NCBI GenBank assembly: GCA_017410325.1
Contig: JAFQRA010000039.1
Coordinates: 1-43,644 of the forward strand
Direction: 5' to 3'
Length of the DNA stretch: 43,644 nucleotides
Origin: Clostridia bacterium
GTDB taxonomy: Bacteria > Bacillota > Clostridia > Oscillospirales > Acutalibacteraceae
Shown: piece by piece, positions 1,666 to 43,644 of the stretch
Position numbering within the stretch: position 1 is the first letter of the stretch
How the letters are laid out: every line of letters starts with the position of its first letter
Notes under the pieces: model-generated
What the model saw: the letters and a program-made list of their open reading frames with translations, nothing else
Databases searched by the model: none
Told to the model about the DNA's origin: nothing
Position numbers and translations under genes: made by a program

Positions 1666-2532
1666 ATGAAAAGAATTTTTGCTCTTTTAACAGGCTTTGT
1701 GCTGATGCTTTCACTCGCCCTTAATGTGTTTGCCTTCAGCGGTAAATTTCTGATTGACGATGCCGATTTGCTGACAGATTACGAGGAAGAACAGCTTGAA
1801 GATTTAATACTCGAACTAAACGACCTGCACGGCATAGATATCGTTATTCACACAACGCCCGATACCGACGGCAAGTACGTTGAAGACTACGCCGACGATT
1901 ATTACGAAAACGGCGGCTACAGCGAAGACGGTCTGATTTTCGTTATCAGCATGGCTGAGCGTGATTATTACACGAGCACCTGCGGATATCTTGTTGACAG
2001 CCTGCCGTGGTACGATATCGATAGCATCTGCGAGCCCGTAGTTCCCTATCTCTCAAACGGACAATACTTTGATGCGTTTGAAGTATACCTGAAAGAGCTT
2101 GACAGCTACCTGAACGGAGACCTGAACTATGACTACGGCGAAGGCGTATTTGCAGGCGATTATTACACGGACGACGAATATTATTACGATGATTATGACG
2201 GCGACTATATTTACACAAGCGGCTCAAGCTCAATAACGGACAGTGTTTTTGCAAGAGAAATTATACTGATTATTGTTGCGGTTATTATTGCGGTCGTTAT
2301 AACTATGTTCCTTAAGAGCAAGATGAACACGGCAGTCAAGAAGCACGATGCCGACGACTACGTGGTTAACGGCAGCTTCAACCTCGAAGTCAGCCGTGAT
2401 GCCTTTGTGGGAAGCCACACAACAAGAAGAGCCATTCCGAAAAACAACAATAACACCCGCTCCGGCGGCGGAGGAGGTGTCAGAGTTTCTTCGGGCGGTG
2501 TAAGGCACGGCGGCTCCGGCGGTAAATTCTGA
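1666..2532 (+). CDS. TPM-domain (YgcG/YdjH-like) membrane protein
   Basis: A 288-residue protein. ATG 1666 is preferred because GAGGAGGG at 1651-1658 precedes it. An N-terminal signal segment (about 1-23) leads to a TPM domain (about 28-150) with the typical opening 'FLIDDADLLTDYEEEQLE'. A very acidic Tyr/Asp-rich linker follows, then one membrane helix around residues 202-222, then a basic tail ending in Gly-rich repeats (GGGGG, GGSGGKF). This layout is standard for TPM proteins, which were linked to photosystem II repair in plants and are of unclear function in Firmicutes. The TPM domain would sit outside the cell. It is the last gene of the SPFH/zinc-ribbon/TPM group and is closed by a strong terminator. 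Confidence 0.8.
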   Translation: MKRIFALLTGFVLMLSLALNVFAFSGKFLIDDADLLTDYEEEQLEDLILELNDLHGIDIVIHTTPDTDGKYVEDYADDYYENGGYSEDGLIFVISMAERDYYTSTCGYLVDSLPWYDIDSICEPVVPYLSNGQYFDAFEVYLKELDSYLNGDLNYDYGEGVFAGDYYTDDEYYYDDYDGDYIYTSGSSSITDSVFAREIILIIVAVIIAVVITMFLKSKMNTAVKKHDADDYVVNGSFNLEVSRDAFVGSHTTRRAIPKNNNNTRSGGGGGVRVSSGGVRHGGSGGKF

Positions 2533-2545
2533 TTTTTAAAATTTT

Positions 2546-2576
2546 GAGAAGGTGTGTTTTGCACCTTCTCTTTTTT
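2546..2576 (+). terminator. Rho-independent terminator after TPM gene
   Basis: A perfect 9-bp stem (GAGAAGGTG/CACCTTCTC) with a 7-base loop is followed by six T residues. It ends the SPFH/zinc-ribbon/TPM transcript. Confidence 0.92.
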
Positions 2577-2587
2577 ACATTTAAATA

Positions 2588-2616
2588 TTGATTTATTAAA
2601 ATGCGTGTGCTATATT
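2588..2616 (+). promoter_or_regulatory. SigA-type promoter for LysR gene
   Basis: TTGATT (2588-2593), a 17-base spacer, then TATATT (2611-2616). It lies just after the upstream terminator and about 45 bases before the LysR start. Confidence 0.6.
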
Positions 2617-2660
2617 ATTTTACAATAATAAAGTATCTTATGTAATTCGGGGTGGAAAAA

Positions 2661-3581
2661 ATGAATTTGCTTCACTTGAAATACGCCGTTGAAATTGCAG
2701 AAACCTCATCAATGACCAAGGCTGCGGAAAACCTTTACACCTCCCAGCCTAACCTCAGCCGTGCCATAAGAGAGCTTGAAGGCACGCTCGGCATTACCAT
2801 ATTCAACCGTACGCCCAAGGGCATTTACCCCACACCTGAGGGCGATGAATTCTTAGGCTACGCCCGCAAAATTCTTTCGCAGGTTGATGCCGTAGAGGAA
2901 ATGTACAGAGGCGAAAAGAAAAAGGTGCAGAGCTTTTCAATTTCCGTACCCCGTGCAAGCTACATTGCCTGCGCTTTTACGGAATTCACCAAACAGCTTG
3001 ACACGCAGATGCCTGCCGAGATTTTCTACAAAGAAACCAACTCAATGAGAGCCATAACCAATATTCTGAACAACGACTACAAGCTCGGCATTTTGAGATA
3101 CCAGTCCGCTTACGAAAACAATTTCCGCACAATGCTTGAGGAAAAGGGCTTAAGCGGAGAGACAATAGCAGAATTCAGCTATGAGATTATGATGTCAAAA
3201 GAGCATCCGCTTGCCGACAGGGAAATTGCGCTTGACGACCTTAACAGCTACACGGAAATTGCTCACGCAGACCCGTTTGTGCCCTCAATGCCGCACAGCA
3301 CGGTTAAGAAAAACGAGATTTCCGACAAGGTTGACAAGCATATCTTCGTTTTTGAAAGAGCCAGCCAGATGGACATTCTTTCGGAAATGACGAGCTCGTT
3401 TATGTGGGTTTCTCCCGTGCCGCAGCCGCTTCTTGACCGCTACGGGCTGATTACAAAGCACTGCAAGGAAAACACCAAAACCTACAAGGATGTTCTCATT
3501 TACAAAAAGGACTACAAATTCAGTCCGCTTGACGATATGTTTATAAACGAGCTGTTAAAGGTTAAAAACCAATTCAAATAA
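2661..3581 (+). CDS. LysR-family transcriptional regulator
   Basis: A 306-residue protein. ATG 2661 fits the Shine-Dalgarno GGGGTGG (2649-2655) better than the in-frame GTG at 2652. The N-terminal winged helix-turn-helix is clear (about 1-60), with the family pattern SMTKAAENLYTSQPNLSRAI and then RELEGTLGITIFNR. Residues from about 90 to the end form the periplasmic-binding-like effector domain, whose ligand cannot be read from sequence. It has its own promoter and is followed by a terminator, so it is monocistronic. LysR proteins often control a neighbour. TspO downstream is in the same direction but separated by a terminator, so the target is uncertain. Confidence 0.9.
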   Translation: MNLLHLKYAVEIAETSSMTKAAENLYTSQPNLSRAIRELEGTLGITIFNRTPKGIYPTPEGDEFLGYARKILSQVDAVEEMYRGEKKKVQSFSISVPRASYIACAFTEFTKQLDTQMPAEIFYKETNSMRAITNILNNDYKLGILRYQSAYENNFRTMLEEKGLSGETIAEFSYEIMMSKEHPLADREIALDDLNSYTEIAHADPFVPSMPHSTVKKNEISDKVDKHIFVFERASQMDILSEMTSSFMWVSPVPQPLLDRYGLITKHCKENTKTYKDVLIYKKDYKFSPLDDMFINELLKVKNQFK

Positions 3582-3585
3582 AATC

Positions 3586-3629
3586 AGCAGATATGTACCG
3601 ATAATTGGTGCATATCTGCTTTTATTTTT
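3586..3629 (+). terminator. Rho-independent terminator after LysR gene
   Basis: AGCAGATATG (3586-3595) pairs with CATATCTGCT (3611-3620), extended inward by ACC/GGT after one T·G wobble, and is followed by TTTATTTTT. Confidence 0.85.
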
Positions 3630-3670
3630 GAATAGATTTGAGTATATTATCATTTTCCGAGGGTGGTTTT

Positions 3671-4138
3671 ATGCTCAAAAAAGTCATAACCTATGCGGTG
3701 AGCATAGCGGTAGCAGTAGGTGTGGGTTCACTTTCCGCATTGCTTACAAGCGGCAGTATGGATATTTATTCAACTCTCAAAACTCCGCCGCTTTCACCGC
3801 CGTCTGTAGTTTTTCCCATTGTGTGGACAATACTTTTCACGCTTATGGGAATAAGCGCGGCACGGGTATTCATCGCAAACGAGTACAAGTGGAATAATAC
3901 ACTCACGGTATATGCTGTACAGCTTGCAGTAAATTTTTTGTGGAGCATTATTTTCTTCAACATAAGAGCGTTATTAATCGCATTCCTCTGGCTGATACTG
4001 CTGTGGGTGCTGATAATAATTATGATTAAAGGCTTTTACAAATACGATAAGCCTGCCGCATATTTACAGATACCGTACCTGCTGTGGGTAACGTTTGCAG
4101 GGTATCTGAATATCGGTATATATTGGCTGAACAGATAG
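3671..4138 (+). CDS. tspO: TspO/MBR family membrane protein
   Basis: A 155-residue protein from ATG 3671, preceded by GAGGGTGG. It has five membrane segments, the usual TspO count. Family marks are visible: 'LKTPPLSPPSVVFPIVWTILF' in the first third, with the conserved Pro-Pro and Trp, 'NFLWSIIFF' in the middle and the 'YLLWVTFAGYLNIGIYWLN' end. TspO proteins bind porphyrins and related ligands and are linked to tetrapyrrole and stress responses. The physiological role in anaerobic Firmicutes is not settled. The gene ends 10 bases from the stop of the convergent zinc-ribbon gene. I see no clear terminator between them. Confidence 0.92.
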   Translation: MLKKVITYAVSIAVAVGVGSLSALLTSGSMDIYSTLKTPPLSPPSVVFPIVWTILFTLMGISAARVFIANEYKWNNTLTVYAVQLAVNFLWSIIFFNIRALLIAFLWLILLWVLIIIMIKGFYKYDKPAAYLQIPYLLWVTFAGYLNIGIYWLNR

Positions 4139-4148
4139 GAACCAATTA

Positions 4149-4829
4149 TCAACCAATTATATCTTTTAGATTATCTGAACTTATCTCAAAGAGATAGTTC
4201 GTAATAGAATTATCAGCTTCGCATATATAGAACTTTATTTTACCGCCATTTTTAAGTAACTCTTTAAGAGTCTCCACACTTGATCCAGTTACTAAAATCC
4301 TGTCACCATCGCTATGCATAGAACTGGTAAATTCACTGGTACTTCCGTTCTCCAAACGAACAGAGATTTCATATTTTTGTGAAAATGAATACGGATTCTT
4401 TACTTGGTTTTTATAATATTTAAATAAGAAAATGCTGATTTTTTCAGAATCAATAACAAGCTGTCCGCTAAGAGGAGAATTAGTTGCAGCACTATTAGAG
4501 AAGGTTCCTGTAAATTCTCTTGAAACAAACCACTCGTCTGTAAGCTCGTCAAATTCATCCACATAAAAACTCTTTTTCCAAGTTTCAGTATTAACCTGTT
4601 CCGATGTAGCGTTACCATCCGCCGCAACAGTTTTACTTCCGTCAACTGTTGTATCATTATCGTCCGTTGATGAACCTAAAATTCCACCAATAAACAAAAC
4701 GATAATAAGCCAAAACCACCATTTTTTGAAAATAGGCTTACTGTTCTTTGCTCCGCAACCGGGGCAAGTTTTAGCATTTGAAGCAATTTCGTTACCACAT
4801 GACTTACAATTAATCATTTTTGCACTCAT
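4149..4829 (-). CDS. Zinc-ribbon single-pass membrane protein, unknown function
   Basis: A 226-residue protein starting at ATG 4829, with GGAGG eight bases upstream. Residues 8-25 form a double-Cys zinc ribbon (CKSCG...CPGCG). A single membrane helix at about 36-53 (WWFWLIIVLFIGGI) follows, then a polar linker, then an extracellular domain of about 140 residues with predicted beta structure. This is the common 'zinc ribbon plus TM plus exported domain' architecture of Firmicutes, for which no biochemical role is known. It has a perfect consensus promoter and lies divergently from a small XRE repressor, which suggests it is a repressed, inducible gene. Confidence 0.7.
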   Translation of the reverse strand: MSAKMINCKSCGNEIASNAKTCPGCGAKNSKPIFKKWWFWLIIVLFIGGILGSSTDDNDTTVDGSKTVAADGNATSEQVNTETWKKSFYVDEFDELTDEWFVSREFTGTFSNSAATNSPLSGQLVIDSEKISIFLFKYYKNQVKNPYSFSQKYEISVRLENGSTSEFTSSMHSDGDRILVTGSSVETLKELLKNGGKIKFYICEADNSITNYLFEISSDNLKDIIG

Positions 4830-4890
4830 TTTACAGCCTCCATCATAAAATTGTGAATAAATCTGCTTTCAATGCAGATATTCATTTTAT

Positions 4891-4923
4891 GAATATTATA
4901 TTCACATAAAATATAATTGTCAA
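4891..4923 (-). promoter_or_regulatory. Perfect consensus SigA promoter overlapped by a palindromic operator
   Basis: On the minus strand TTGACA (4918-4923), a 17-base spacer and TATAAT (4895-4900) match the consensus exactly. The -10 is covered by the palindrome GAATAT-T-ATATTC (4891-4903), and a second small palindrome TTCAT-TTT-ATGAA (4881-4893) abuts it. It drives the zinc-ribbon gene. The XRE protein encoded divergently is the likely binder, which is inference. Confidence 0.8.
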
Positions 4924-4964
4924 GCATATTTTATGATTTAATTGAATATGTGAGGTGGTGCAAA

Positions 4965-5186
4965 ATGAAGAATATCAAGCTTATACGAGTTATAAATGAT
5001 TATACTCAGATTAAAGTACAAATGGAAACCGGTATTCCTCAAAGCATCATTTCAAAATATGAAACAGGTGAGCTTTTACCAACCACAGAAAATTTAATAA
5101 TTCTTGCAAATTTCTATAATACAAGTATAGATTATCTTTTAGATTTAACTGATGAAAAGTCCCCCTATCCCCTGAAAAAGAAATAA
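4965..5186 (+). CDS. Small XRE/Cro-C1 family repressor
   Basis: A 73-residue protein. ATG 4965 is preceded by GAGGTGG (4952-4958). The whole protein is one helix-turn-helix domain: 'YTQIKVQMETGIPQSIISKYETGELLPTTENLIILANFYNTSIDYLLDLTDE' is the standard Cro/C1 pattern, including the 'SKYETG..LPT' recognition part and the 'YLL.LTD' end. It has a short Lys-rich tail and no ligand domain. It faces the zinc-ribbon membrane gene across a 135-base regulatory region with palindromes, so it likely represses that gene and perhaps itself. It is followed by a strong terminator. Confidence 0.85.
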   Translation: MKNIKLIRVINDYTQIKVQMETGIPQSIISKYETGELLPTTENLIILANFYNTSIDYLLDLTDEKSPYPLKKK

Positions 5187-5190
5187 TATA

Positions 5191-5238
5191 AAAGGCGAAT
5201 TGTACTAATGATCTCAGTACAATTCGCCTTTATTTTTT
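5191..5238. terminator. Strong bidirectional-type terminator
   Basis: A perfect 16-bp stem (5191-5206 with 5216-5231), a nine-base loop, then a T-rich run on the plus strand. It ends the XRE transcript. The A residues just before the stem allow it to work for the convergent transposase as well, but more weakly. Confidence 0.9.
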
Positions 5239-5241
5239 TAG

Positions 5242-5724
5242 CTATCCAACATAAAAGCAGTCAACGTTCCACTTTGTTGCGTTGTATTCGATATATTCAT
5301 ATATCTTTTCGTAATCGTGTTTGTTCCTGATAATATGGTCGTGAAATGAACGTTGCCAAAGCCTGCCGCCATAAGCGTGCGTTGAATAGGACTTCAGCCT
5401 GCCTATTATATTATGTAGGGGAGGGCTTCCACGCCCTCCCGTTGCCTCATTATCTATTGCAACCAACAAATGAATGTGATTGGGCATTATTACATAATTA
5501 TCAACTGTTATGCCAGCGAGATTATTTTGGATATATTTTATATAATTATCTACTATCAAGCCGACTTCTGTCAATTTAACAGACGGGAGGGCACAGAGGC
5601 CCTCCCCTACAATTTCACTCAACAGTTTCTGCTTTTTATAGGTACATACAGTAACAAAATACACACCGGTTTGGCTGTAGTCATAATCCTTTAATCTTGT
5701 AGGTTTACGCTTCGGATATTCCAT
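5242..5724 (-). CDS. REP-associated tyrosine transposase (RAYT-like, Y1_Tnp/IS200 family)
   Basis: A 160-residue HUH-type single-strand nuclease. The opening 'YSQTGVYFVTVCTYKKQKLL' and the HUH motif 'MPNHIHLL' (H83, H85) are diagnostic. 'LWQRSFHDHIIRN' and 'YIEYNATKW' near the end match the RAYT C-terminus, and Tyr 138-147 contains the candidate catalytic tyrosine. Length is normal for the family. Residues about 39-50 (GEGLCALP) and 96-104 (GRGSPPLH) are encoded by two GC-rich palindromes that read through in frame. No Shine-Dalgarno precedes ATG 5724, and the gene lies 12 bases after the SIS gene in the same direction, so it may depend on that transcript. RAYTs are domesticated nucleases thought to act on REP palindromes. 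Confidence 0.85.
   Translation of the reverse strand: MEYPKRKPTRLKDYDYSQTGVYFVTVCTYKKQKLLSEIVGEGLCALPSVKLTEVGLIVDNYIKYIQNNLAGITVDNYVIMPNHIHLLVAIDNEATGGRGSPPLHNIIGRLKSYSTHAYGGRLWQRSFHDHIIRNKHDYEKIYEYIEYNATKWNVDCFYVG
5415..5441 (+). repeat. REP-like palindrome inside transposase gene (copy 1)
   Basis: GGGAGGGC (5419-5426), a six-base loop, then GCCCTCCC (5433-5440), with the flank GTAG on the left. The loop differs from copy 2 but the stem is identical. It is in frame with the transposase. Confidence 0.85.
5584..5610 (-). repeat. REP-like palindrome inside transposase gene (copy 2, inverted)
   Basis: GGGAGGGC (5585-5592), loop, GCCCTCCC (5599-5606), then CTAC. The flank is the reverse complement of the copy 1 flank, so the two copies are in inverted orientation with stems about 160 bases apart. 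Confidence 0.85.
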
Positions 5725-5736
5725 AATAAAAATAAA

Positions 5737-6477
5737 TTACAGATATTCAATTTCACCGAGATATTTCTTAATATAGCGGTTGTCCTCAGGCTCTTCGGTT
5801 TCATAGACGGAGTTACCCGTGAATACTTCGGGCGTGATACCCTTACGCACAAGAATTTCAGCCGTACGGGAGACAACGGCGTTTACTATCATTGAGCCGA
5901 CAACCGTTGACGTGGGGCCGACACGGCGGTCAAAGCCCTCAATTTCAATGCTCGCGTCCGTTACGCTGCCTATATTTTCGATTGTGATATCGGCAAATTC
6001 ATAAAGGCTTCTGCCGCTCGGATGAGGCGAGCGCACGTAGTTTGAACGGTATGTATTTGTAAGCGCAATTACCGTAAGGCCGTGCTCGTTTGCAAGCTGT
6101 GCCATATCAACGGTAATACTGCGGTGTCCCGAATAGGAAAAAACGAAAAGCACGTCTCCCCTTCTGAGCTGATGGTGGTCAAAAATAACCTTTGCATAGC
6201 CGTCCAGCCGTTCAAGGCCGCTGCTCTTTGAAGCGGAGGTATGAAGCATCAGACCCTCTTCAAAAATAGGCCGTAAATTAACAAGACCGCCTGCACGGAA
6301 GAACATTTCCTGTGCAAGAATATTTGAGTGACCCGTACCGAAAAGGAAGATTTTCCTTCCGTCTGCAAGTGCGCGAGCCATTTCCTGCGAAGCTGCTTCA
6401 ATAGCCGGAATCTGTGATTCCAGCACCCTTCCGATAAGTCGCTGTACATTTTCGATGTATTCGGCGGCTTTATTCAT
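5737..6477 (-). CDS. SIS-domain sugar isomerase-like protein (UPF0309 type)
   Basis: A 246-residue SIS (sugar isomerase) domain protein. The phosphosugar loop 'IFLFGTGHSNILAQEMFFRAGG' lies at about 43-64 and the second SIS strand 'DVLFVFSYSGH' at about 107-118. 'ALTNTYRSNY' and 'GSMIVNAVVSRTAEIL' complete the fold. SIS proteins isomerise or sense phosphosugars, and relatives such as MurQ and AgaS work on amino sugars. Its ATG overlaps the stop of the upstream kinase gene in an ATGA arrangement, so the two are translationally coupled and probably act in sequence: kinase first, then this phosphosugar enzyme. The substrate is inferred to be a phosphorylated amino sugar or similar. Confidence 0.75.
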   Translation of the reverse strand: MNKAAEYIENVQRLIGRVLESQIPAIEAASQEMARALADGRKIFLFGTGHSNILAQEMFFRAGGLVNLRPIFEEGLMLHTSASKSSGLERLDGYAKVIFDHHQLRRGDVLFVFSYSGHRSITVDMAQLANEHGLTVIALTNTYRSNYVRSPHPSGRSLYEFADITIENIGSVTDASIEIEGFDRRVGPTSTVVGSMIVNAVVSRTAEILVRKGITPEVFTGNSVYETEEPEDNRYIKKYLGEIEYL

Positions 6478-7451: not shown

Positions 7452-8408
7452 TTATTCTACGTTAAAATCCGTAAGGTGCTTTGAGAAAAACTCAACCATT
7501 TTTTCTTCGTATTCCTGCTTTGCATCATAATAGCAATATGCGTGAATAAGACCCTCTTTGAAAAGCTTTTCCTTGGGCACGGTACAGGCTTCATAAAGGC
7601 GTTCACCCATTTCAAAGGGAACGGTCGGGTCAGCGGTACCGTGAACAAACATAATCGGATTCTTCATATCCTTCATTTTGCCCAGGCAGTCTGCCTCGTT
7701 CATATCAAAGCCAAGGAAAATACGGCAGGCAAAAATAAGACCCTTTGCTATGTGGGGCATATCGATACCCGTCATCTTCTTCATATTGAAGGCAATAATT
7801 TCGTACGCGCTTGTGAAACCGCAGTCCTCAATAATACATTTAACCTGGTCGGGCGGATTGCTTGCGTTTGCAAGCATTACCGTTGCCGCACCCATTGAAA
7901 TGCCGTGAAGCACGATTTCAATATCCTCACCGAAGCGGTCTATAAGATAATCCACCCACAAAAGCAGATTTTCCGATTCCGTTGCGCCGAAGCTTATATA
8001 TTTGCCTTCGCTTCTGCCGTGAGAAACGTGGTCAGGCAAAAGGTAATTGAAGCCAAGCGTTTCGTTATAGAACGGGAAAAGGTGGCTGCATTCATCGGGG
8101 CCGTTGCACTTATATCCGTGAACAGCAATTACAAAGCGCTTACTGCCCTCCGCAGGAACAAACCACGCCTTGAGCTCATTGCCCTGCTTATCGGTAAGTG
8201 ACAAATCCTCAGGATTTTTATCGTAAAGGTACTGATTGTTGCGCTGTCTGAGCTTGTAGCGGATTTTATGTTTTTCGCTTAAGGAATCGTAATCAACCGT
8301 AGTGTCCTTGGGACGGACAACACATTCCTTCATTGCTACGGCAACAATCGTACAGAAGCCTATGGCAAGTATAACGGCAACGGCTATAATTGCCTTTATA
8401 ATCCACAT
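7452..8408 (-). CDS. Membrane-anchored alpha/beta hydrolase
   Basis: A 318-residue protein. ATG 8408 is chosen because a GGGGAGG Shine-Dalgarno sits just upstream. A longer frame to 8456 would overlap the previous gene and has no such signal. Residues 1-26 form one membrane segment (IIKAIIAVAVILAIGFCTIVAVAM). The hydrolase fold follows: the 'VIAVHGYKCNG' oxyanion strand, the nucleophile elbow GISMG (Ser), 'VHGTADPTVPFEMG' with the acid Asp, and the final His in 'EGLIHAYCY'. It resembles the YqkD-like group of exported or membrane esterases. The substrate is unknown. Deacylation of a glycoside in the same pathway would fit the operon, which is inference. Confidence 0.85.
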   Translation of the reverse strand: MWIIKAIIAVAVILAIGFCTIVAVAMKECVVRPKDTTVDYDSLSEKHKIRYKLRQRNNQYLYDKNPEDLSLTDKQGNELKAWFVPAEGSKRFVIAVHGYKCNGPDECSHLFPFYNETLGFNYLLPDHVSHGRSEGKYISFGATESENLLLWVDYLIDRFGEDIEIVLHGISMGAATVMLANASNPPDQVKCIIEDCGFTSAYEIIAFNMKKMTGIDMPHIAKGLIFACRIFLGFDMNEADCLGKMKDMKNPIMFVHGTADPTVPFEMGERLYEACTVPKEKLFKEGLIHAYCYYDAKQEYEEKMVEFFSKHLTDFNVE

Positions 8409-8428
8409 TTCTTTCAGCCTCCCCGGGT

Positions 8429-8770
8429 TTAAAAGTTGGAGCCGTTCCAACCCCAATGGTCAATTTCTTCATATTTTACGTAAATTCGTGAAGCGGAAAC
8501 TCCCAGCTCCGACGAAACGATTTCGGTAAGCTTTGCGGTAAGTGCATCATAAGCACTGTCCGAAGCGGAGCCGAAAAGCTTTACGCTTATATATGCGAGC
8601 GGAGCATCGTCGCCGACAAACCACATACGCTCATTGTCTGAAAAGCCGAGCATAAGCCAACGCTCGCTCTTGCCGGGAATAAGCTCAATCGCTTTGCCGA
8701 AGGCAGTCTTAAGGCTCATCTCCTGCTCTTTTGAAATACTGACGTTGGTTTTCGTCTGAATAAAAGGCAT
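8429..8770 (-). CDS. MIF/tautomerase-superfamily protein
   Basis: A 113-residue protein whose length and end match the macrophage migration inhibitory factor family: Pro follows the initiator Met (the catalytic base once Met is removed), 'FGSASDSAYDALTAKLTEIVSSELGV' in the second half, and 'RIYVKYEEIDHWGWNGSNF' at the C-terminus, which parallels the end of MIF. Bacterial members are phenylpyruvate or keto-enol tautomerases. GGGGAGG precedes the ATG. Its place between the alpha-glucosidase and the hydrolase genes suggests that it may act on an enol intermediate of the oxo-sugar chemistry, but this is a guess. Confidence 0.85.
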   Translation of the reverse strand: MPFIQTKTNVSISKEQEMSLKTAFGKAIELIPGKSERWLMLGFSDNERMWFVGDDAPLAYISVKLFGSASDSAYDALTAKLTEIVSSELGVSASRIYVKYEEIDHWGWNGSNF

Positions 8771-8790
8771 AAGTTATCCTCCCCTGTCAA

Positions 8791-10473
8791 TCAATCAAAA
8801 AGGAACACCTTTGTTTCGTAAGGCCTGAGATTAAAGGAATCGAAGCCCGAATTAAGCTCATCATAATTGCCGAGAACAACCTTGCCCTTTGCAAGGTCGA
8901 AGCCCTTGGGTGCTGTAAAGCGCTCAATGGTATCGCTGAATGAGCAGACAACAAGCATTCTTTTGCCCTCGTAATTACGCTCGTAAACGTAGAGCTTGTC
9001 GCTGTCGTGGAAATGCTCCTTGAAATCGCCGTAAATTACGATTTCGTTTTCCTTACGGAACTTGAGAAGCTTGCGGTAATAGTTGAGGATTGAGTTCGGA
9101 TCGTTTTCCGCCTGTTCAACGTTAACCTCGGTATAATTCGGGTTGATATAGAACCACGGCTCATCTGCGGTGGTGAAGCCTGCGTTCTTCTTATCCGACC
9201 ACTGCACGGGTGTTCTGCCGTTATCACGGGAGGCATACATGGCACGCTTCATAATATTCTCGTGCGGGAAGCCGAACTTTTTGAAAATATCATAGGTGTT
9301 GTGTGTTGCAACGTCCTTATACATTGAAAGGTTGGGCAGACGGATGCTCGTCATACCGATTTCCTGACCCTGGTAGATAAAGGGTGTACCGCTCTGACAG
9401 ATGTACATGGTTGCAAGCATTTTGCCCGATTCCACACGGAACTTTTCGCTGCCGAAGCGGCTGATGATACGAGGCTGGTCGTGATTTTCCAGGTAAAGTG
9501 CATTCCAGCCCTTGCCGTAAAGCTTGGTCTGCCACGTAGTCATAACCTTCTTGAGCTTTTTAAGGTTGAACTTTGTGACTATAAAGTTTGTAATCATACA
9601 GTCAGCTTCCATATGCTGGAAGTTGAACATCATATTAAGAACAGGCTTTTTGCCCTCGCTCTCATCAATGAATTTAAGAGCCGTGTCGGGAGTCATCATC
9701 GGTGCTTCGCCGACAGTCATACAGTCGTACTGGCTGAGCACTTCATCGTTGAATTCTGAAAGATATTCGTGAAGATGAGGTCCGCAGGTAAAGTGCTCCA
9801 TACCGCAGGCAACGGGAAGCGGGAAGCCGTTGGGCAGACCCTCACGCTTTGAAATATAAGTGATAACGTCCTCGCGGAAGCCGTCAACACCCATATCGAG
9901 CCAGAAGCGCATAATATCCTTTACTTCGTTTCTGACAGCGGGGTTATCCATATTGAGGTCCGGCTGCTCAACAGCAAAAAGATGAAGATAGTATTCGTCA
10001 AGCTCCTCGTTATACTCCCATGCAGGGCCCGGAAAGGTGGATTTCCAGTTATTGGGAGGATTCTTGCCCTTGCCCTTACGCCAGATATAGTAATCGTGGT
10101 AAGGGTTATCGGCACCCTTAAGGCTCTCTTTAAACCACTTGTGCTGGTCGGAAGTGTGGTTTATGACAAGGTCCATAATAACCTTGAGGCCTCTTTCGTG
10201 TGCACCGTCAAGAACGGCCTTGAAGTCTTCCAGTGTGCCGTATTCGGGCGCAATATCCCTGTAATCGGAAATATCGTAGCCGTAGTCCTTCTGCGGCGAA
10301 GCGTAAATCGGTGAAAACCATATAGCATCAACGCCGAGGCTCTTAATATAGTCAAGCTTTGAAAGAACACCCTTAAGGTCGCCTATACCGTCGCCGTTGC
10401 CGTCGCAGAAGCTGCGTGTCCATATCTGGTAAACGGACATTTCCTTATACCAGGCTTTTTTGATTTCTGACAT
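8791..10473 (-). CDS. GH13 alpha-glucosidase (oligo-1,6-glucosidase type, GH13_31-like)
   Basis: A 560-residue enzyme. The ATG at 10473 is eight bases after GGAGG, whereas the in-frame ATG at 10479 is too close. It has the full (beta/alpha)8 barrel of GH13: 'DLVINHTSDQHKWF' (region I), 'GVDGFREDVI' (nucleophile D202), 'TVGEAP' (acid/base E256) and 'ENHDQPR' (D332). Val follows the nucleophile, which in this subfamily goes with preference for alpha-1,6 links. It also has a C-terminal beta domain. There is no signal peptide, so it acts in the cytoplasm on imported oligosaccharides or glucosides. It lies in the middle of the sugar operon and gives the best hint that the substrate of the cluster is an alpha-glucoside. 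Confidence 0.9.
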   Translation of the reverse strand: MSEIKKAWYKEMSVYQIWTRSFCDGNGDGIGDLKGVLSKLDYIKSLGVDAIWFSPIYASPQKDYGYDISDYRDIAPEYGTLEDFKAVLDGAHERGLKVIMDLVINHTSDQHKWFKESLKGADNPYHDYYIWRKGKGKNPPNNWKSTFPGPAWEYNEELDEYYLHLFAVEQPDLNMDNPAVRNEVKDIMRFWLDMGVDGFREDVITYISKREGLPNGFPLPVACGMEHFTCGPHLHEYLSEFNDEVLSQYDCMTVGEAPMMTPDTALKFIDESEGKKPVLNMMFNFQHMEADCMITNFIVTKFNLKKLKKVMTTWQTKLYGKGWNALYLENHDQPRIISRFGSEKFRVESGKMLATMYICQSGTPFIYQGQEIGMTSIRLPNLSMYKDVATHNTYDIFKKFGFPHENIMKRAMYASRDNGRTPVQWSDKKNAGFTTADEPWFYINPNYTEVNVEQAENDPNSILNYYRKLLKFRKENEIVIYGDFKEHFHDSDKLYVYERNYEGKRMLVVCSFSDTIERFTAPKGFDLAKGKVVLGNYDELNSGFDSFNLRPYETKVFLFD

Positions 10474-37157: not shown

Positions 37158-38181
37158 ATGAGAATTCTCAAGGCTATTCCGGGCATAGCTTTGTCGGTCG
37201 GTGTGGCACCGATTGCCTGCTGGCTTGAAAGTCTTTTTCCTGTTCATCTGATAGGCTCTGCGATTATCGTAATGTTTATCGGGATGATAATAAACCATTT
37301 CCTCAAGGGCACCGAGTTTTTTGGGGTCTTAAATTTACGTCAAAGAAGATACTCAAATTTGCCATTATACTTCTCGGTTTGTCGCTGGATATCATGACAA
37401 TTCTCTTCGTCGGCAGAATGTCACTGACGGTTATGTTATTCACCCTGCTCACTTACTTTGGCGGCGGTTATTTTATCGGCAGGGCATTGAGTCTTAACCG
37501 GAAGCTCTCCAACCTCATTTCGGCAGGTACGGGTATCTGCGGTGGCTCTGCAATTGCTGCAATCGCCCCGACTATTGATGCTGTCGATAACGATGTTGCC
37601 TACGCAATGTCAGCAACCTTCCTGTTCGATATGGCTATGATTGTGCTCTTCCCGATTATGGGCAGGTCGCTTGGTATGAGTGACGAGTCTTTCGGAGTCT
37701 GGGAGGTACTGCGGTAAACGATACATCTTCCGTCGTTGCCACGGGCTATGCGTTTTCCGAGGGTGCAGGTGATTTTGCTACAATGGTAAAGTTGACAAGA
37801 ACGCTCGCAATTATCCCAACGGTAATAACCTTTGCGTTTGTTCAACTCAACCTCAAGTGCAAGGAGGTGCTTGCCAACAATGCCGACTCAGGCAACCTAA
37901 AGGCACATTTCAGCATCGCAAAAATATTCCCGTGGTTTATCCTTGGCTTTCTTGCAATGTCCGTTGTCGCAATCCTTTTCCCGATTTCTGCGAAAATCGT
38001 TTCGAGTACGAAATCCGTAAGCAAATTCCTTATGGTCTGCGCTCTGTCTGCAATCGGACTGAAAACATCCTTCTCGGGTTTGAAAAAATCGGGTGCATGA
38101 CCGATGATACACGGCTTTATCATTTCTGCACTTGTCGTTATAGTTGCCCTCGCTGTCGAGTGCGCAATGGGTAATGTGTAA
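37158..38181 (+). pseudogene. Decayed YeiH/UPF0324-family transporter gene
   Basis: Three reading-frame pieces together give a full-length YeiH-family (putative sulfate exporter) protein of about 340 residues. Piece one (from 37158) has 'IPGIALSVGVAPIACWLES'. A missing base near 37320-37326 (TTTTTTGGGG) shifts the frame, and piece two continues as 'GLKFTSKKILKFAIILLGLS' and 'ISAGTGICGGSAIAAIAPTI'. A second missing base near 37703 leads to 'GTAVNDTSSVVATGYAFSEG' and 'AGDFATMVKLTRTLAIIP'. An in-frame TGA at 38098 interrupts 'LKKSGA' from 'PMIHGFIISALVV', and the normal stop is 38179. Two frameshifts plus a stop indicate real decay rather than one sequencing error. Its promoter is still good. 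Confidence 0.88.
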
Positions 38182-40305: not shown

Positions 40306-40354
40306 TTCAATATTTATAATATTGAAATTGCTTGGCGTTTTATGGTATTATAAT
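40306..40354 (+). promoter_or_regulatory. Promoter and palindromic operator of the TIR operon
   Basis: TTGAAA (40322-40327) with an 18-base spacer to TATTAT (40346-40351), overlapped by TATAAT (40349-40354). A perfect 9-bp palindrome TTCAATATT-TAT-AATATTGAA (40306-40326) overlaps the -35, so it is a candidate operator. Confidence 0.55.
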
Positions 40355-40400
40355 AAAAATAATAAATGCGTTTTAAGTTAACGAGGAAGGATAATGTATT

Positions 40401-41015
40401 TTGGAAAAGATTTTTCTTATATCACAAAGTGAAGTTCAAAAAGGCCATATTGAACAAGCATTAAACCTTGATAGAATTTCTTATGATGATACTTATCACT
40501 TGAGTTTAAATACTTGCCTTTCTTATTTTGATAAAAACAATCAAATTTATATAATGGCTTTGGATGAAACAAAAACTACTGTTTTAGGATATATAAACTT
40601 TAGCCCTATAACGGAAGAAATGTACCAAAAGATTAAAAGCGGTCAAACAATTGATACTGTAATAGAGTCATCAGATATAGTTAGATATGTTGATGATGTT
40701 GATTGCTGGGGGTATATGTCTTCCATTGTCGTGCACCCTGACCACCGAAATCGGGGAATTGCAAAACAAATGTTGATGCTATTACAAAAGCAAATCTGTG
40801 AACTTGCTATGTACCATAATATATTTTTTAACTCTATTGTTGCCGATGCGGTCAGTGATTTGGGTGAGTATATATTAACCGAAATAGGATATGAGAAGAT
40901 AAAAACGTCGAATCACGATACAAAGATAATGGAACTGAATCTGTTTAATGAAAATACAGTGGAAACAGAATACAACAAAGAAATGATTGCTATATATAAA
41001 AGGAGAGGAAAGTAA
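40401..41015 (+). CDS. GNAT family N-acetyltransferase
   Basis: A 204-residue protein that starts at TTG 40401, with GAGGAAGG (40383-40390) upstream. A nearby ATG at 40394 is out of frame and gives only 12 codons. The GNAT core is intact: 'VLGYINFSPIT', 'GYMSSIVVHPDHRNRGIAKQMLMLL' with the acetyl-CoA loop R-N-R-G-I-A (116-121), and 'YILTEIGYEKIK'. AT content is far above that of the chromosome genes before it. It is directly joined to the TIR gene (stop and next start adjacent), so the two are co-translated. A partner enzyme or antidote-like modifier of the TIR protein is possible. The GNAT part is clearly similar to the C-terminal half of the TIR protein. Confidence 0.85.
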   Translation: MEKIFLISQSEVQKGHIEQALNLDRISYDDTYHLSLNTCLSYFDKNNQIYIMALDETKTTVLGYINFSPITEEMYQKIKSGQTIDTVIESSDIVRYVDDVDCWGYMSSIVVHPDHRNRGIAKQMLMLLQKQICELAMYHNIFFNSIVADAVSDLGEYILTEIGYEKIKTSNHDTKIMELNLFNENTVETEYNKEMIAIYKRRGK

Positions 41016-42086
41016 ATGCTTTTTAAATATGATTTATTTATTTCGTATGCTACCGAAAATAAAAATATTGCGGATTACATTGTAGAAAAAATAGAGAAAA
41101 GAGGCTACAAATGTTTTATTGCCCCCAGAGATATCAGGACAGGTTCTGAATATGCAACTGAAATCATTTCAGGAATAAGCAATTCGACAGCTGTACTTCT
41201 TGTTTTTTCAAGTAAATCAGACAAATCTCATTATGTATTAAGAGAGATTAATTCTGCGGTTTCCAGAAATAAACCTATTATTCCTTTAAGAATAGAAGAC
41301 TTCTTACCTTCGGAGGCTATGGAATTCTATTTAGGACCAACACATTGGTTAGATGCTTTTCCTGAAGTGTTAGATGTACATTTGGATAAAGTAGTTAATA
41401 TTTTTTCGGGAATGCACAGTACTGTTCAAGAGGTAAAAGAAGATGTAATTAGAGTTGTTGGACCGGAATTAATGAGCATTTCTGAAATCAGTAAAATTGG
41501 CTTAAGTGATACCGATTTAACAATGAAAGAAATAGAGATAGATTATTTATGTATTCCTTCAGACAGATATGAAATGAATGATGAAATTGAAGGTACTTTT
41601 GATGATTGGAAAAATTCTGTGCAAGAGTATGAAGTAGATACTTCTGTTGTTTTAGTTAAAAACGATGATGTTATCGGTTATTGTGATATGTATCCTGTAA
41701 CAACTGAAGCATATGAAGAACTTGTATCCGGGAAAGTGATTATTAGAGATTCAATGATAGGATTATTTTGCTTGGGTGGAACATTTGATGTGTATATTTC
41801 TATGATAGGGATTATCCCTCAGGAAGCTACTCAAAGTAATTATCTGAAAATTTTTGATTGGGTATTCAAACACTTGCAAGAATGGAAACAATCGGATATA
41901 AGTGTAAACAGAATAGGAATTTCCGTGTATTCTGATATATTGGAAAAATTTGTAAAGATGTTTGGGTTTGAATATAAATGTCTCAATCCTGCAAAAGGCA
42001 AGGTTTATGAAACATCTATAGAAAAATTAAAACTCAATACACAGATTCAAAAGCGATATCCTATGTTTGTAAATGAAGGTGAGTAA
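41016..42086 (+). CDS. TIR-domain protein with degenerate C-terminal GNAT domain
   Basis: A 356-residue protein starting right after the GNAT stop, with AGGAGAGG upstream. Residues 1-about 130 are a TIR domain: 'YDLFISYATENKNIADYIVEKIEKRGYKCFIAPRDIRTG', then 'AVLLVFSSKSDKSHYVLREINSAV' with candidate catalytic E77, and 'KPIIPLRIEDF'. Residues about 170-340 match the preceding GNAT ('DDVIGYCDMYPVTTEAYEELVSG' against 'TTVLGYINFSPITEEMYQKIKSG'), but the acetyl-CoA loop has become 'IPQEATQSNYLKIF', so this copy is likely a non-catalytic sensor. TIR enzymes of bacteria cut NAD+ or make cyclic ADP-ribose signals, often for anti-phage defence. I infer the same here. Confidence 0.85.
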   Translation: MLFKYDLFISYATENKNIADYIVEKIEKRGYKCFIAPRDIRTGSEYATEIISGISNSTAVLLVFSSKSDKSHYVLREINSAVSRNKPIIPLRIEDFLPSEAMEFYLGPTHWLDAFPEVLDVHLDKVVNIFSGMHSTVQEVKEDVIRVVGPELMSISEISKIGLSDTDLTMKEIEIDYLCIPSDRYEMNDEIEGTFDDWKNSVQEYEVDTSVVLVKNDDVIGYCDMYPVTTEAYEELVSGKVIIRDSMIGLFCLGGTFDVYISMIGIIPQEATQSNYLKIFDWVFKHLQEWKQSDISVNRIGISVYSDILEKFVKMFGFEYKCLNPAKGKVYETSIEKLKLNTQIQKRYPMFVNEGE

Positions 42087-42087
42087 C

Positions 42088-42462
42088 ATGTCGAGAAAAA
42101 CTATTTTCTTATCTCATTCAAGCAAGGATATTGACAAAGTAAGAAAGATAAGAGACATCTTGGAATATGAACCTCTTTTATTTCATATGAAGTGTTTAGA
42201 TGATGATAACGAAACTCTTGAAGATTTTATAAAAAGGGAAATAGACGCCCGTAATATATTTGTGTACTACAAAAGCAAAAATTCAGAGTCTTCAATTTGG
42301 GTGCAAAAAGAGTTGGCCTATATAAAAGAGTCCTCAAATAAACGCTTGTATGAAATTGACATTGAAAAACCTTTAAGTGAAACATTGGTCGATTTCTTGC
42401 ACACATTAGCAAACATAATAAAAAAAGAACAAAATATTTATCTCGTGTTTTCATGCAGATAG
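42088..42462 (+). CDS. TIR-domain protein, N-terminal part of a probable tandem-TIR gene
   Basis: A 125-residue ORF from ATG 42088, one base after the TIR-GNAT stop, with AGGTGAG in front. It is a TIR domain: 'IFLSHSSKDIDKVRKIRDIL', a loop with Asp/Glu, and 'NIFVYYKSKNSESSIWVQKELAYI' with candidate catalytic E75. After the domain the frame continues with 'IYLVFSC', the first strand of a second TIR domain, and stops four residues later at 42460. The next ORF, in frame +1, carries on with the rest of that domain. A frameshift near 42457-42461 therefore splits one gene of about 260 residues. See the next entry. Confidence 0.72.
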   Translation: MSRKTIFLSHSSKDIDKVRKIRDILEYEPLLFHMKCLDDDNETLEDFIKREIDARNIFVYYKSKNSESSIWVQKELAYIKESSNKRLYEIDIEKPLSETLVDFLHTLANIIKKEQNIYLVFSCR

Positions 42463-42463
42463 A

Positions 42464-42868
42464 ATGCTTAGCGATATTATAACATCATTACTTGAAAAAA
42501 GTGGATATGACATTATTCGATACAATCCTTATAAACAAGAAGAATGTGAACAGCATGAATATGATATTATATCGATATCAAAGAATGGAATTTTTTTGCC
42601 AATTATCACAAAGAACTTTTTAAAAAGTGTATACTGTATGAGTGAGATAGAAAAAGTCTTGTATGATGATTGCGAACACAATGTCATATTTAAACCTATT
42701 TGTGTAAATATATTACAATCCTTAGTAGAGGTAAATCTACCTGCTTGTGCAAAAAAATACAAGATGTATGGCTTAAATGATATTTCAATAATGGATAGAA
42801 ACGATATAAATGGATTGTTATCATTTATAGAAAAGGACAACCGGTTATATCAGCAAACAAAAATATAA
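42464..42868 (+). CDS. TIR-like ORF, second half of the probable tandem-TIR gene (frameshifted)
   Basis: A 134-residue ORF that begins at ATG 42464, one base after the previous stop. No Shine-Dalgarno precedes it. 'MLSDIITSLLEKSGYDIIRYNP' is the first helix and second strand of a TIR domain whose first strand lies in the previous ORF. 'GIFLPIITKNFLKSVYCMSEIEKVLYDDC' holds the WCxxE-like motif as Y-C-M-S-E with candidate E61. The end (SIMDRNDINGLLSFIE) is a short helix. Either it is the decayed 3' end of a tandem-TIR gene, or both halves are made by frameshifting or by coupled re-initiation. Both TIR domains keep their Glu, so decay would be recent. Confidence 0.68.
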   Translation: MLSDIITSLLEKSGYDIIRYNPYKQEECEQHEYDIISISKNGIFLPIITKNFLKSVYCMSEIEKVLYDDCEHNVIFKPICVNILQSLVEVNLPACAKKYKMYGLNDISIMDRNDINGLLSFIEKDNRLYQQTKI

Positions 42869-42897
42869 TTAAAAAATCAATAACTTAACAAGTTAAA

Positions 42898-42932
42898 AGC
42901 ACTTGATACTTTAAAGGTATCCGGTGTTTTTT
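42898..42932 (+). terminator. Terminator of the TIR operon
   Basis: 42898-42909 pairs with 42917-42928 (12 positions, two wobbles and one mismatch) around a seven-base loop, then TTTTTT. Confidence 0.7.
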
Positions 42933-43030
42933 GTTACAAAATTTTTAAGAAAAGGAAGTGAAAAAATGCTTTAGCAAACTAACCGAAAAAAAACAGTAAA
43001 AAAGCGTGGGATAAGTCTTAGCAAGCATTG

Positions 43031-43129
43031 AATTTGTGCATACAAATTCCACTTGTTAGGGACGTCTCGCCTGCCAGCTCGGTCGGTGCTTTTGAATGCA
43101 AAATGCATTCAAAGGTCTCCACCGAGACC
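43031..43129 (+). other. oriT-like cluster of hairpins before the MobC-like gene
   Basis: The 300 bases between 42869 and 43168 contain no gene. Hairpins are AATTTGT-GCAT-ACAAATT (43031-43048), a 12-bp stem 43089-43100 with 43104-43115 around AAA, and GGTCTC-CACC-GAGACC (43114-43129). GTCTCG at 43064 can also pair with CGAGAC at 43123. Stacked inverted repeats directly upstream of a MobC-like gene are typical of transfer origins. No nick site was confirmed. Confidence 0.45.
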
Positions 43130-43168: not shown

Positions 43169-43450
43169 TTGAAGCTGACCAAAACCATATTTTTGTATCT
43201 GAATGAGAAAGAATTTTCAACGCTCACAAAGGATGCCGAAAGAGCGAATATGTGCAGGTCAGAGTATATCAGGCAACAGATTTATAATGCAAAAATAAAG
43301 CCCACATTGGATATGTACTATGATAAACAGATTACAATCTCTTCTTTTAAAAATAAGCAAGAAATCCGAACCCTTTTCCTATTGGGAAAATCTGGTTCGG
43401 ATTTTTCTGGTTTGGTACGAGTGTTCATAAGGGATTTACTCAAAATATAA
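43169..43450 (+). CDS. MobC/ribbon-helix-helix-like mobilisation protein
   Basis: A 93-residue protein from TTG 43169, with GAGGAGGTG (43153-43161) seven bases upstream. Residues 1-about 40 look like the ribbon-helix-helix start of relaxosome accessory proteins: 'KTIFLYLNEKEFSTLTKDAERANMCRSEYIRQQI'. The C-terminus is 'SGLVRVFIRDLLKI'-like and matches no family I recognise. MobC proteins bind oriT and help relaxases, and they are usually about 110-130 residues, so this is short. Its position just after the hairpin cluster supports the call. No relaxase gene is in view; it would be downstream of the window end. Confidence 0.65.
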   Translation: MKLTKTIFLYLNEKEFSTLTKDAERANMCRSEYIRQQIYNAKIKPTLDMYYDKQITISSFKNKQEIRTLFLLGKSGSDFSGLVRVFIRDLLKI

Positions 43451-43524: not shown

Positions 43525-43644
43525 ATGTCAAATATCATTGAAGATTTTTATTACGGCAACATTGAGCCGCAAGATGTCAATTCAGAATTAACACCCAAGC
43601 TCAAGAAGAAATTGAGCAATCTTGCCGAGAAAGAAGAACAACTC
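43525..43644 (+). CDS. Start of an integrative-element protein (DUF6809-like), truncated by window end
   Basis: ATG 43525 with GGAGGA about eight bases upstream. 40 codons are visible: 'MSNIIEDFYYGNIEPQDVNSE' and then Lys/Glu-rich helix. From memory this opening is like a short coiled protein often carried by Clostridia conjugative elements. Function is unknown. Confidence 0.6.
   Translation, partial: MSNIIEDFYYGNIEPQDVNSELTPKLKKKLSNLAEKEEQL

Follow-up and report, generated by a model that had tools for sequence, protein, structure and literature searches.

Two adjoining genes, one for a stand-alone GNAT acetyltransferase and one for a TIR domain fused to a GNAT-like domain that looks like a pseudo-GNAT, recur together in some gut bacteria of the Clostridia and appear to form a bacterial switch, for immunity or growth arrest, of an undescribed kind. 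The pair lies in an AT-rich island of the window, by which we mean the whole stretch of DNA analysed (an entire contig of 43,644 bases, so that what follows the island on its 3' side is out of view). To the reading that it forms a sporadic two-gene TIR switch, in which NAD+ cleavage by the fusion protein is under GNAT-linked control, we give about an even chance. The features of the island and its neighbours are:

40401..41015, + strand: stand-alone GNAT acetyltransferase, the partner gene (ORF of 204 aa, TTG start; Pfam Acetyltransf_1, E 1.4e-7)
41016..42086, + strand: TIR domain fused to a GNAT-like domain, directly after the GNAT stop (ORF of 356 aa; TIR_2 75.7 bits, 5.5e-21)
41016..41408, + strand: TIR domain of the fusion, with putative catalytic glutamate E77 at 41244-41246
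41457..42077, + strand: GNAT-like domain of the fusion, without the acetyl-CoA loop (degenerate loop at 41817-41846)
42088..42462, + strand: first TIR half of a predicted interrupted tandem-TIR gene, accessory (TIR_2 34.4 bits)
42464..42868, + strand: second TIR half of the same predicted gene (TIR_2 16.3 bits, under the 28-bit cut-off)
42895..42931, + strand: terminator-like hairpin followed by a T run (-14.8 kcal/mol, z -4.2, 0 of 200 shuffles as stable)
43169..43450, + strand: NikA-like mobilisation gene, neighbour (PF21983 31.4 bits, cut-off 27)
43525..43644, + strand: DUF6809 ORF, partial at the contig end, neighbour (PF20648 33.2 bits, cut-off 27)

The product of the first gene has both a Pfam GNAT match and an intact acetyl-CoA loop (R-N-R-G-I-A, encoded at 40746-40763), in agreement with the acetyltransferase proposed in the preliminary description. 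The acetyl-CoA loop of GNATs has the form Q/R/K-x-x-G-x-G/A, and presence or absence was scored with this motif at the aligned place; the loop is intact in 14 of the 15 partner GNATs, the window's included, and the partner in locus L047 is the one GNAT without it. No PADLOC model matched the window GNAT.

The second gene product was modelled with AlphaFold2 at a mean pLDDT of 82.4. A Pfam scan matched TIR_2 and no GNAT family, but comparing profiles with those of the partner GNATs confirmed a GNAT-like domain at the C-terminus, as did the predicted fold, so the TIR-GNAT fusion described previously stands. Both the TIR fold and the TIR_2 profile of TIR NADases are present. The column of E77 holds a glutamate in all 19 proteins compared and is aligned with a glutamate of 7uxr, RUN1 and RPV1; we take the residue in this column to be the catalytic one of TIR NADases. 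By structural search the TIR model resembles the TIR domains of SARM1, SPARTA and AbTir, which are NAD-cleavers.

The acetyl-CoA loop is missing at the aligned place from every one of the 19 fused domains, in which the GNAT fold is present, and on this single motif the domain looks like a pseudo-GNAT. Because TIR domains filled the structural search made with the whole protein, the fused domain was predicted alone; its best structural matches (2ree, 2ref and 7uci) include GNAT-like domains other than plain acetyltransferases, so it may carry out other chemistry. A search of solved structures with the fused-domain profile gave no credible match, and profile comparison showed the domain to be homologous to the clade-1 partner GNAT. 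NCBIfam scores for the TIR-GNAT and the GNAT were far under the cut-offs, with no named model covering the protein, and the PADLOC matches of the TIR-GNAT were partial and confined to the TIR part.

Recurrence was assessed across 18 distinct loci in Clostridia (the window, L022, L023, L025, L044-L054 and L057-L059; L055 and L056 were excluded as copies of L023 and L022, respectively), one locus scan being a non-exhaustive one that relied on two peptide patterns. The stand-alone GNAT adjoins the TIR-GNAT gene on the same strand in 15 of the 18 loci, in support of the combination proposed in the preliminary description, and every one of these pairs has a gap between -29 and +2 bases (some starts chosen by eye). 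Searching 50 other TIR loci with the same GNAT profiles gave a match in the flank of two, a control that under-detects GNATs because the test partners themselves supplied its profiles and 35 of its loci had flanks of at most 1.5 kb; one of the two matches (L074) is a GNAT adjoining a TIR-methyltransferase gene. The partner is missing from three of the ten clade-1 loci (L044, L046 and L052), and the partner profile found no partner elsewhere in those three genomes, so it is not strictly needed. The clade-2 partner belongs to a different GNAT lineage and lies on the opposite side of the TIR-GNAT gene, so that an active-looking GNAT neighbour is present despite differences in both lineage and position; it is weakly comparable to its own fused domain (probability 45), and hetero-pairing of like domains is therefore not general.

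The fused-domain profile matched three of 394 genomes of the order, in five places, each either a TIR fusion or the partner GNAT of the window. Class-wide it also matched, in G432, a solo GNAT-like gene and, in G538, a GNAT-membrane protein, with weak matches in G576, G665 and G664, and the partner-GNAT family search returned a strong solo relative in G151, amid housekeeping-looking genes (by eye), and weak matches in twelve further genomes. Singleton homologues in unrelated settings, which had been named as evidence against the system, thus mostly did not turn up in the 394 genomes of the order; the exceptions are G151 and, at the level of the class, G432 and G538. Among same-genus relatives one of ten genomes has the system (G776, the genome of L044). 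For seven of these genomes absence is soft, as only two of the seven reach 90% completeness with contamination no higher than 5%. The longer TIR-spacer-GNAT-like protein of L088, a third such fusion, lacks the loop and has no adjoining GNAT, both judged by eye.

The preliminary description had treated all four ORFs as one operon and one system. Their spacing of 0, 1 and 1 base holds when ATG 42088 is taken as the third start (an alternative start at 42073, which makes the ORFs overlap, is listed as well), and these gaps, the common terminator, a related tandem-TIR gene after the TIR-GNAT gene in L044 and other TIR genes following in L022 and L025 would all suit a single functional four-gene system. 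We nevertheless reject the four-gene unit and consider it extremely improbable: when both TIR pieces were used as TBLASTN queries, L044 alone among the other 17 loci had a counterpart (L047 is uninformative, its contig stopping 0.2 kb past the TIR-GNAT gene), and the reading frame is broken in both tandem-TIR copies, though not at the same position. The first TIR strand is missing from the ORF at 42464-42868 as read in its own frame, and inspection of the three frames placed a stretch fitting that strand where the preceding ORF ends, in a different frame. As judged from the reading frames, the two ORFs are one interrupted tandem-TIR gene outside the conserved pair. Of the two TIR ORFs previously proposed, the first stands on its TIR_2 match, the second, below the cut-off, was not confirmed as an independent gene, and the conserved unit is GNAT plus TIR-GNAT.

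Under our preferred reading, the two-gene switch, gene 1 would supply an intact-looking acetyltransferase and gene 2 a TIR effector cleaving NAD+, in which the C-terminal pseudo-GNAT would act as sensor or regulator. At rest the TIR domain would be restrained by the pseudo-GNAT together with the partner GNAT, or because the partner acetylates the TIR protein or a shared target. Phage or another stress would interfere with the partner or its substrate, or with the binding of acetyl-CoA, and so bring about TIR assembly, and the assembled TIR domains would cleave NAD+ and stop growth. The sequences themselves show the gene pair, how tightly it is coupled, the missing loop of the fused domain and the conserved TIR glutamate, and knowledge of the TIR family suggests the cleavage and growth arrest; we infer that the pseudo-GNAT senses, that the partner regulates, that phage is the trigger and which way control runs. 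A broader version, which we think unlikely to be right, is that bacteria have integrated decoys, in which a TIR executioner would carry, as a fused domain, a dead copy of an ordinary enzyme and be kept beside a working enzyme of that kind, so that a disturbance of the enzyme, read by the decoy, leads to NAD+ loss, as in plant immune receptors. The layout of TIR-X next to X was seen in two separate lineages with GNAT as X, and with CutA1 a single time, in L044, where a TIR-LRR-CutA1 gene is followed by a stand-alone CutA1.

A toxin-antitoxin module, in which the TIR-pseudo-GNAT would be the toxin and the GNAT an enzymatic antitoxin silencing it by acetylation, would fit two coupled genes of this size, their sporadic distribution and the adjoining mobilisation gene. 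The three partnerless clade-1 TIR-GNAT genes are awkward for an essential antitoxin, and the loss of the acetyl-CoA loop from one partner also argues against it; we judge this explanation improbable. GNAT-RHH toxin-antitoxin modules (TacAT and KacAT; PMC9431474 and PMC5449658) likewise consist of two coupled genes including a GNAT, but here the partner is a TIR protein and the GNAT is not the predicted toxin. No RHH antitoxin adjoins the GNAT, its flanks being the TIR gene and a dehydrogenase gene with the NikA-like gene 2.2 kb downstream, and identity with these modules was rejected. Non-immune regulation, in which the pair would tune NAD+ or acetylation metabolism, would suit the housekeeping-looking neighbours in L048, L050 and L051 (by eye; no obvious defence islands) and the lack of any member in viral contigs (searched with the TIR-GNAT), plasmids (GNAT and TIR-GNAT of both clades) and phages (GNAT only). 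It is distinctly unlikely, as the pair is rare and sporadic even inside the genus, further TIR genes stand beside the TIR-GNAT gene in L022, L025 and L044, and a mobilisation gene lies beside the window pair.

Thoeris couples a TIR protein, ThsB, with the effector ThsA, and the pair resembles it in having a TIR with a conserved glutamate, few genes and a sporadic distribution. In a Thoeris-like arrangement the TIR would make a signal of the cyclic ADP-ribose type, received by the GNAT or pseudo-GNAT, a reading helped by the binding of the ADP part of CoA by GNAT folds, by matches to ThsB models (TIR-GNAT, ThsB_TIR 25.2 bits against 21.2 and PADLOC models 20-22 bits; ORF 42088-42462, up to 34.9 bits) and by an ADP-ribosylglycohydrolase downstream in L058. 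The TIR-GNAT matches are low and cover the TIR part only, however, the glycohydrolase occurs in that one locus, and Pfam scans of the pair show no ThsA-like SIR2/SLOG effector and no macro receiver domain, so this reading seems very unlikely. By eye, no ThsA-like effector was seen among the ORFs of the window or its relatives, the window contig ending 0.7 kb past the terminator. SPARTA, a short prokaryotic Argonaute system of TIR-APAZ with pAgo, has APAZ and Argonaute where the present pair has a GNAT-like domain and a GNAT partner. Unlike in tandem-GNAT proteins such as 3tt2 and 5kf1, the two copies here are on separate proteins, the degenerate one bearing the TIR.

A literature search (mostly titles and starts of abstracts, without bioRxiv and with few subscription papers) found no TIR-GNAT system, and within it the association of a TIR and a GNAT-like domain with a stand-alone GNAT is undescribed, as had been suspected. 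Immunity in bacteria, plants and animals alike depends centrally on TIR proteins, and a main open question is what restrains and triggers them; a recurrent pair with a disabled GNAT copy as regulatory domain beside an active-looking GNAT offers a compact, testable control model. If true, it would to our knowledge be the first link of protein acetylation machinery with TIR NAD+ cleavage.

The GC content of the island is 0.28-0.36 per kb and that of the remaining contig mostly 0.42-0.52, which bears out the AT-rich composition noted earlier, though a second dip (0.34-0.39) exists at 3.5-6 kb. The terminator reported at the island end has the folding energy of the hairpin and the T run in its favour, but a simple terminator pattern scan found none (0), this hairpin included. 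The mobilisation gene proposed beside the island proved NikA-like (it also matches RHH_1 weakly, at 12.3 bits, under the cut-off) and, on sequence similarity, supports a mobile setting; inverted repeats, which may be the oriT-like hairpins of the preliminary description, lie at 43030-43049 and 43078-43126. A promoter scan of the region gave 15 sites against a chance mean of 18.0, hence no excess. The opposite-strand neighbour of the GNAT gene is a short-chain dehydrogenase (by eye) with a close relative in two of the three same-genus genomes queried (G775 and G381); when the G775 and G381 flanks were compared with the window, DNA similarity was found in G775 alone and over the dehydrogenase gene only, with the island DNA absent there. 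In a TBLASTN search of plasmids with the L088 TIR-GNAT, 113 records matched, with coverage of the query below 80% in all of them; among the 20 listed, the matches are to the TIR part except for one to the GNAT part, the latter a separate hypothetical protein as annotated in Bdellovibrio. An intact-looking pair is present in L045 from Lachnoclostridium sp. An131, whose record is not labelled as a metagenome assembly and which is presumably a cultured isolate.

At the 3' end of the 43,644-base contig, the TIR/GNAT island comprises the following features (ORFs from the ORF list):

40401-41015, forward strand: GNAT ORF
41016-42086, forward strand: TIR-GNAT fusion ORF
42088-42462, forward strand: first TIR piece
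42464-42868, forward strand: second TIR piece, below the Pfam cut-off
42895-42931, forward strand: hairpin with T run ending the island (z -4.2)

The preliminary description placed ORFs each starting at most 1 base after the previous one in AT-rich DNA unlike the chromosome, beside a mobilisation-type gene, and this was borne out: the four ORFs are spaced by 0, 1 and 1 base, island GC is 0.28-0.36 vs 0.42-0.52 across most of the contig, and a NikA-like mobilisation gene followed by a partial DUF6809 ORF lies downstream of the hairpin. The contig has a second AT-rich dip at 3501-6000 (GC 0.34-0.39). The proposed terminator has the hairpin and T run in its favour, but was absent from the output of the terminator pattern scanner.

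The four tightly spaced ORFs stand as described, but the last two are read as a single interrupted accessory gene. In ORF 42464-42868 the first strand of the TIR fold is missing (16.3 bits vs a Pfam cut-off of 28), and by inspection a stretch at the end of ORF 42088-42462 could supply it in another frame. Immediately 3' of the TIR-GNAT gene in L044, a locus from the window's genus (genome G776), lies a related tandem-TIR gene, likewise out of frame with the break at a different position. Because a YeiH-family gene of the window (37158-38100; PF03601 on 2 of 3 pieces) is also split across frames, gene decay and assembly error (indels) are both possible; tandem-TIR frames were taken as assembled, with no pieces joined or repaired. 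L022 and L025 also have additional TIR genes 3' of the pair, the one in L022 being a second TIR-GNAT.

Relatives were collected by a pattern-based scan of a genome collection (84,980 species per the tool description) with a three-sequence alignment as query, which gave 31 loci, 16 with full-length or near full-length TIR-GNAT (including L055 and L056, copies of L023 and L022, respectively). Counting the window, L022, L023 and L025, the distinct loci numbered 18, with 10 in clade 1 (the window and L044-L052; 50-74% identity to the window) and 8 in clade 2 (L022, L023, L025, L053, L054 and L057-L059, with near-copies L053 and L054 counted separately; 23-29% identity). Tree support for clade 2 was 100/98, and the clade 1 fork was left open at 80/63. 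A related GNAT lies upstream of TIR-GNAT in 7/10 clade 1 loci and a different GNAT downstream in 8/8 clade 2 loci, at intergenic distances of -29 to +2 bases in 15/15 pairs (some starts picked by eye). The same GNAT profiles matched in the flanks of 2 of 50 other TIR loci, a control that under-detects GNATs because the profiles were built from the test partners and 35/50 flanks were ≤1.5 kb. Of the island's genes, GNAT and TIR-GNAT stayed together in 15/18 loci; for the tandem TIR only the L044 relative was noted. One control match was L074, where a GNAT ORF (1216-1944) stops 3 bases ahead of a TIR-methyltransferase fusion gene (1948-3231), a further TIR-enzyme fusion with a neighbouring GNAT.

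A glutamate occupies the column of E77, the putative catalytic residue, in 19/19 proteins, and the acetyl-CoA loop is lost in every fused GNAT copy vs 1/15 partners. Structures matched by the TIR-GNAT model (pLDDT 82.4, pTM 0.64) include the TIRs of SARM1, SPARTA and AbTir, families from which we infer that TIR-GNAT may cleave NAD+. Sequence comparison establishes the pair, its tight coupling, the loop loss and the glutamate conservation; as mechanism we favour a TIR switch: the pseudo-GNAT domain would regulate the attached TIR, and the active-looking GNAT would act as the working partner of this domain. Phage or GNAT activity may be sensed, with NAD+ cleavage and then growth arrest as the putative outcome; the GNAT might either restrain or trigger the TIR. 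An essential antitoxin role for the partner is argued against by its absence from 3/10 clade 1 loci. These three loci require three changes on the tree, consistent with repeated partner loss in clade 1, and the partner profile found no partner GNAT elsewhere in their genomes.

SPARTA exemplifies an established type of TIR effector, one that carries a fused regulatory domain and has a partner protein encoded apart from it; the proposed switch resembles it in these features. The TIR and GNAT combination, which the preliminary description did not recognise, had no matching system in PADLOC or NCBIfam, and no TIR-GNAT system was found in the literature searched, which covered only a minority of subscription papers. 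In L044, a TIR-LRR-CutA1 fusion (3731-5329) and a stand-alone CutA1 downstream (5641-5955; one small ORF between) lie directly 5' of the TIR-GNAT gene, paralleling TIR-GNAT beside GNAT; the two CutA1 copies are 29% identical (E 2e-13, single comparison). A broader plan of TIR-X beside X, with GNAT and CutA1 as instances, is a possible but less likely reading of these few cases.

The fused-domain profile matched 3/394 genomes of the order, at five places: each was a TIR fusion except the paired GNAT of the window, so that homologues of the fused domain standing singly in unrelated settings did not appear at this level. It matched 8/391 genomes of the class (three weakly): matches in the window's genome, G504 and G482 were TIR fusions, but the exceptions were a stand-alone gene in G432 and, in G538, a GNAT with a C-terminal part of membrane-bound appearance. 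The partner profile matched 16/394 genomes of the order, twelve weakly; its strong places were all TIR-linked except a stand-alone gene in G151. Among ten relatives of the same genus, TIR-GNAT occurred in G776, with none in G209, a TIR match only in G381, and none in seven further genomes, several incomplete. Searches of plasmids and viral contigs found no member of the pair, nor did a phage search, for which the GNAT alone was the query. A gene on the minus strand of L089 (5965-7665) begins with a GNAT-like domain (Acetyltransf_1 19.7 bits, slightly below cut-off; loop intact by eye), followed by a long remainder with two apparent membrane helices at its end; the domain is a distant relative of the fused domain in another candidate effector protein.

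Six TIR genes lie in a row on one strand of L044 (3731-13052): LRR-CutA1, GNAT-like, the interrupted tandem TIR and three more, of which the final one is cut by the locus end. After the pair in L058 come, at 7727-9323, an apparent phosphatase (by eye) and an ADP-ribosylglycohydrolase (PF03747, 240.8 bits), which at this single locus may possibly undo ADP-ribose products. A possible defence island surrounds the longer TIR-spacer-GNAT-like gene of L088 (3897-12942), whose neighbours include apparent recombinases, an apparent GHKL-type ATPase (PF13589) and an apparent cytosine DNA methyltransferase (PF00145).
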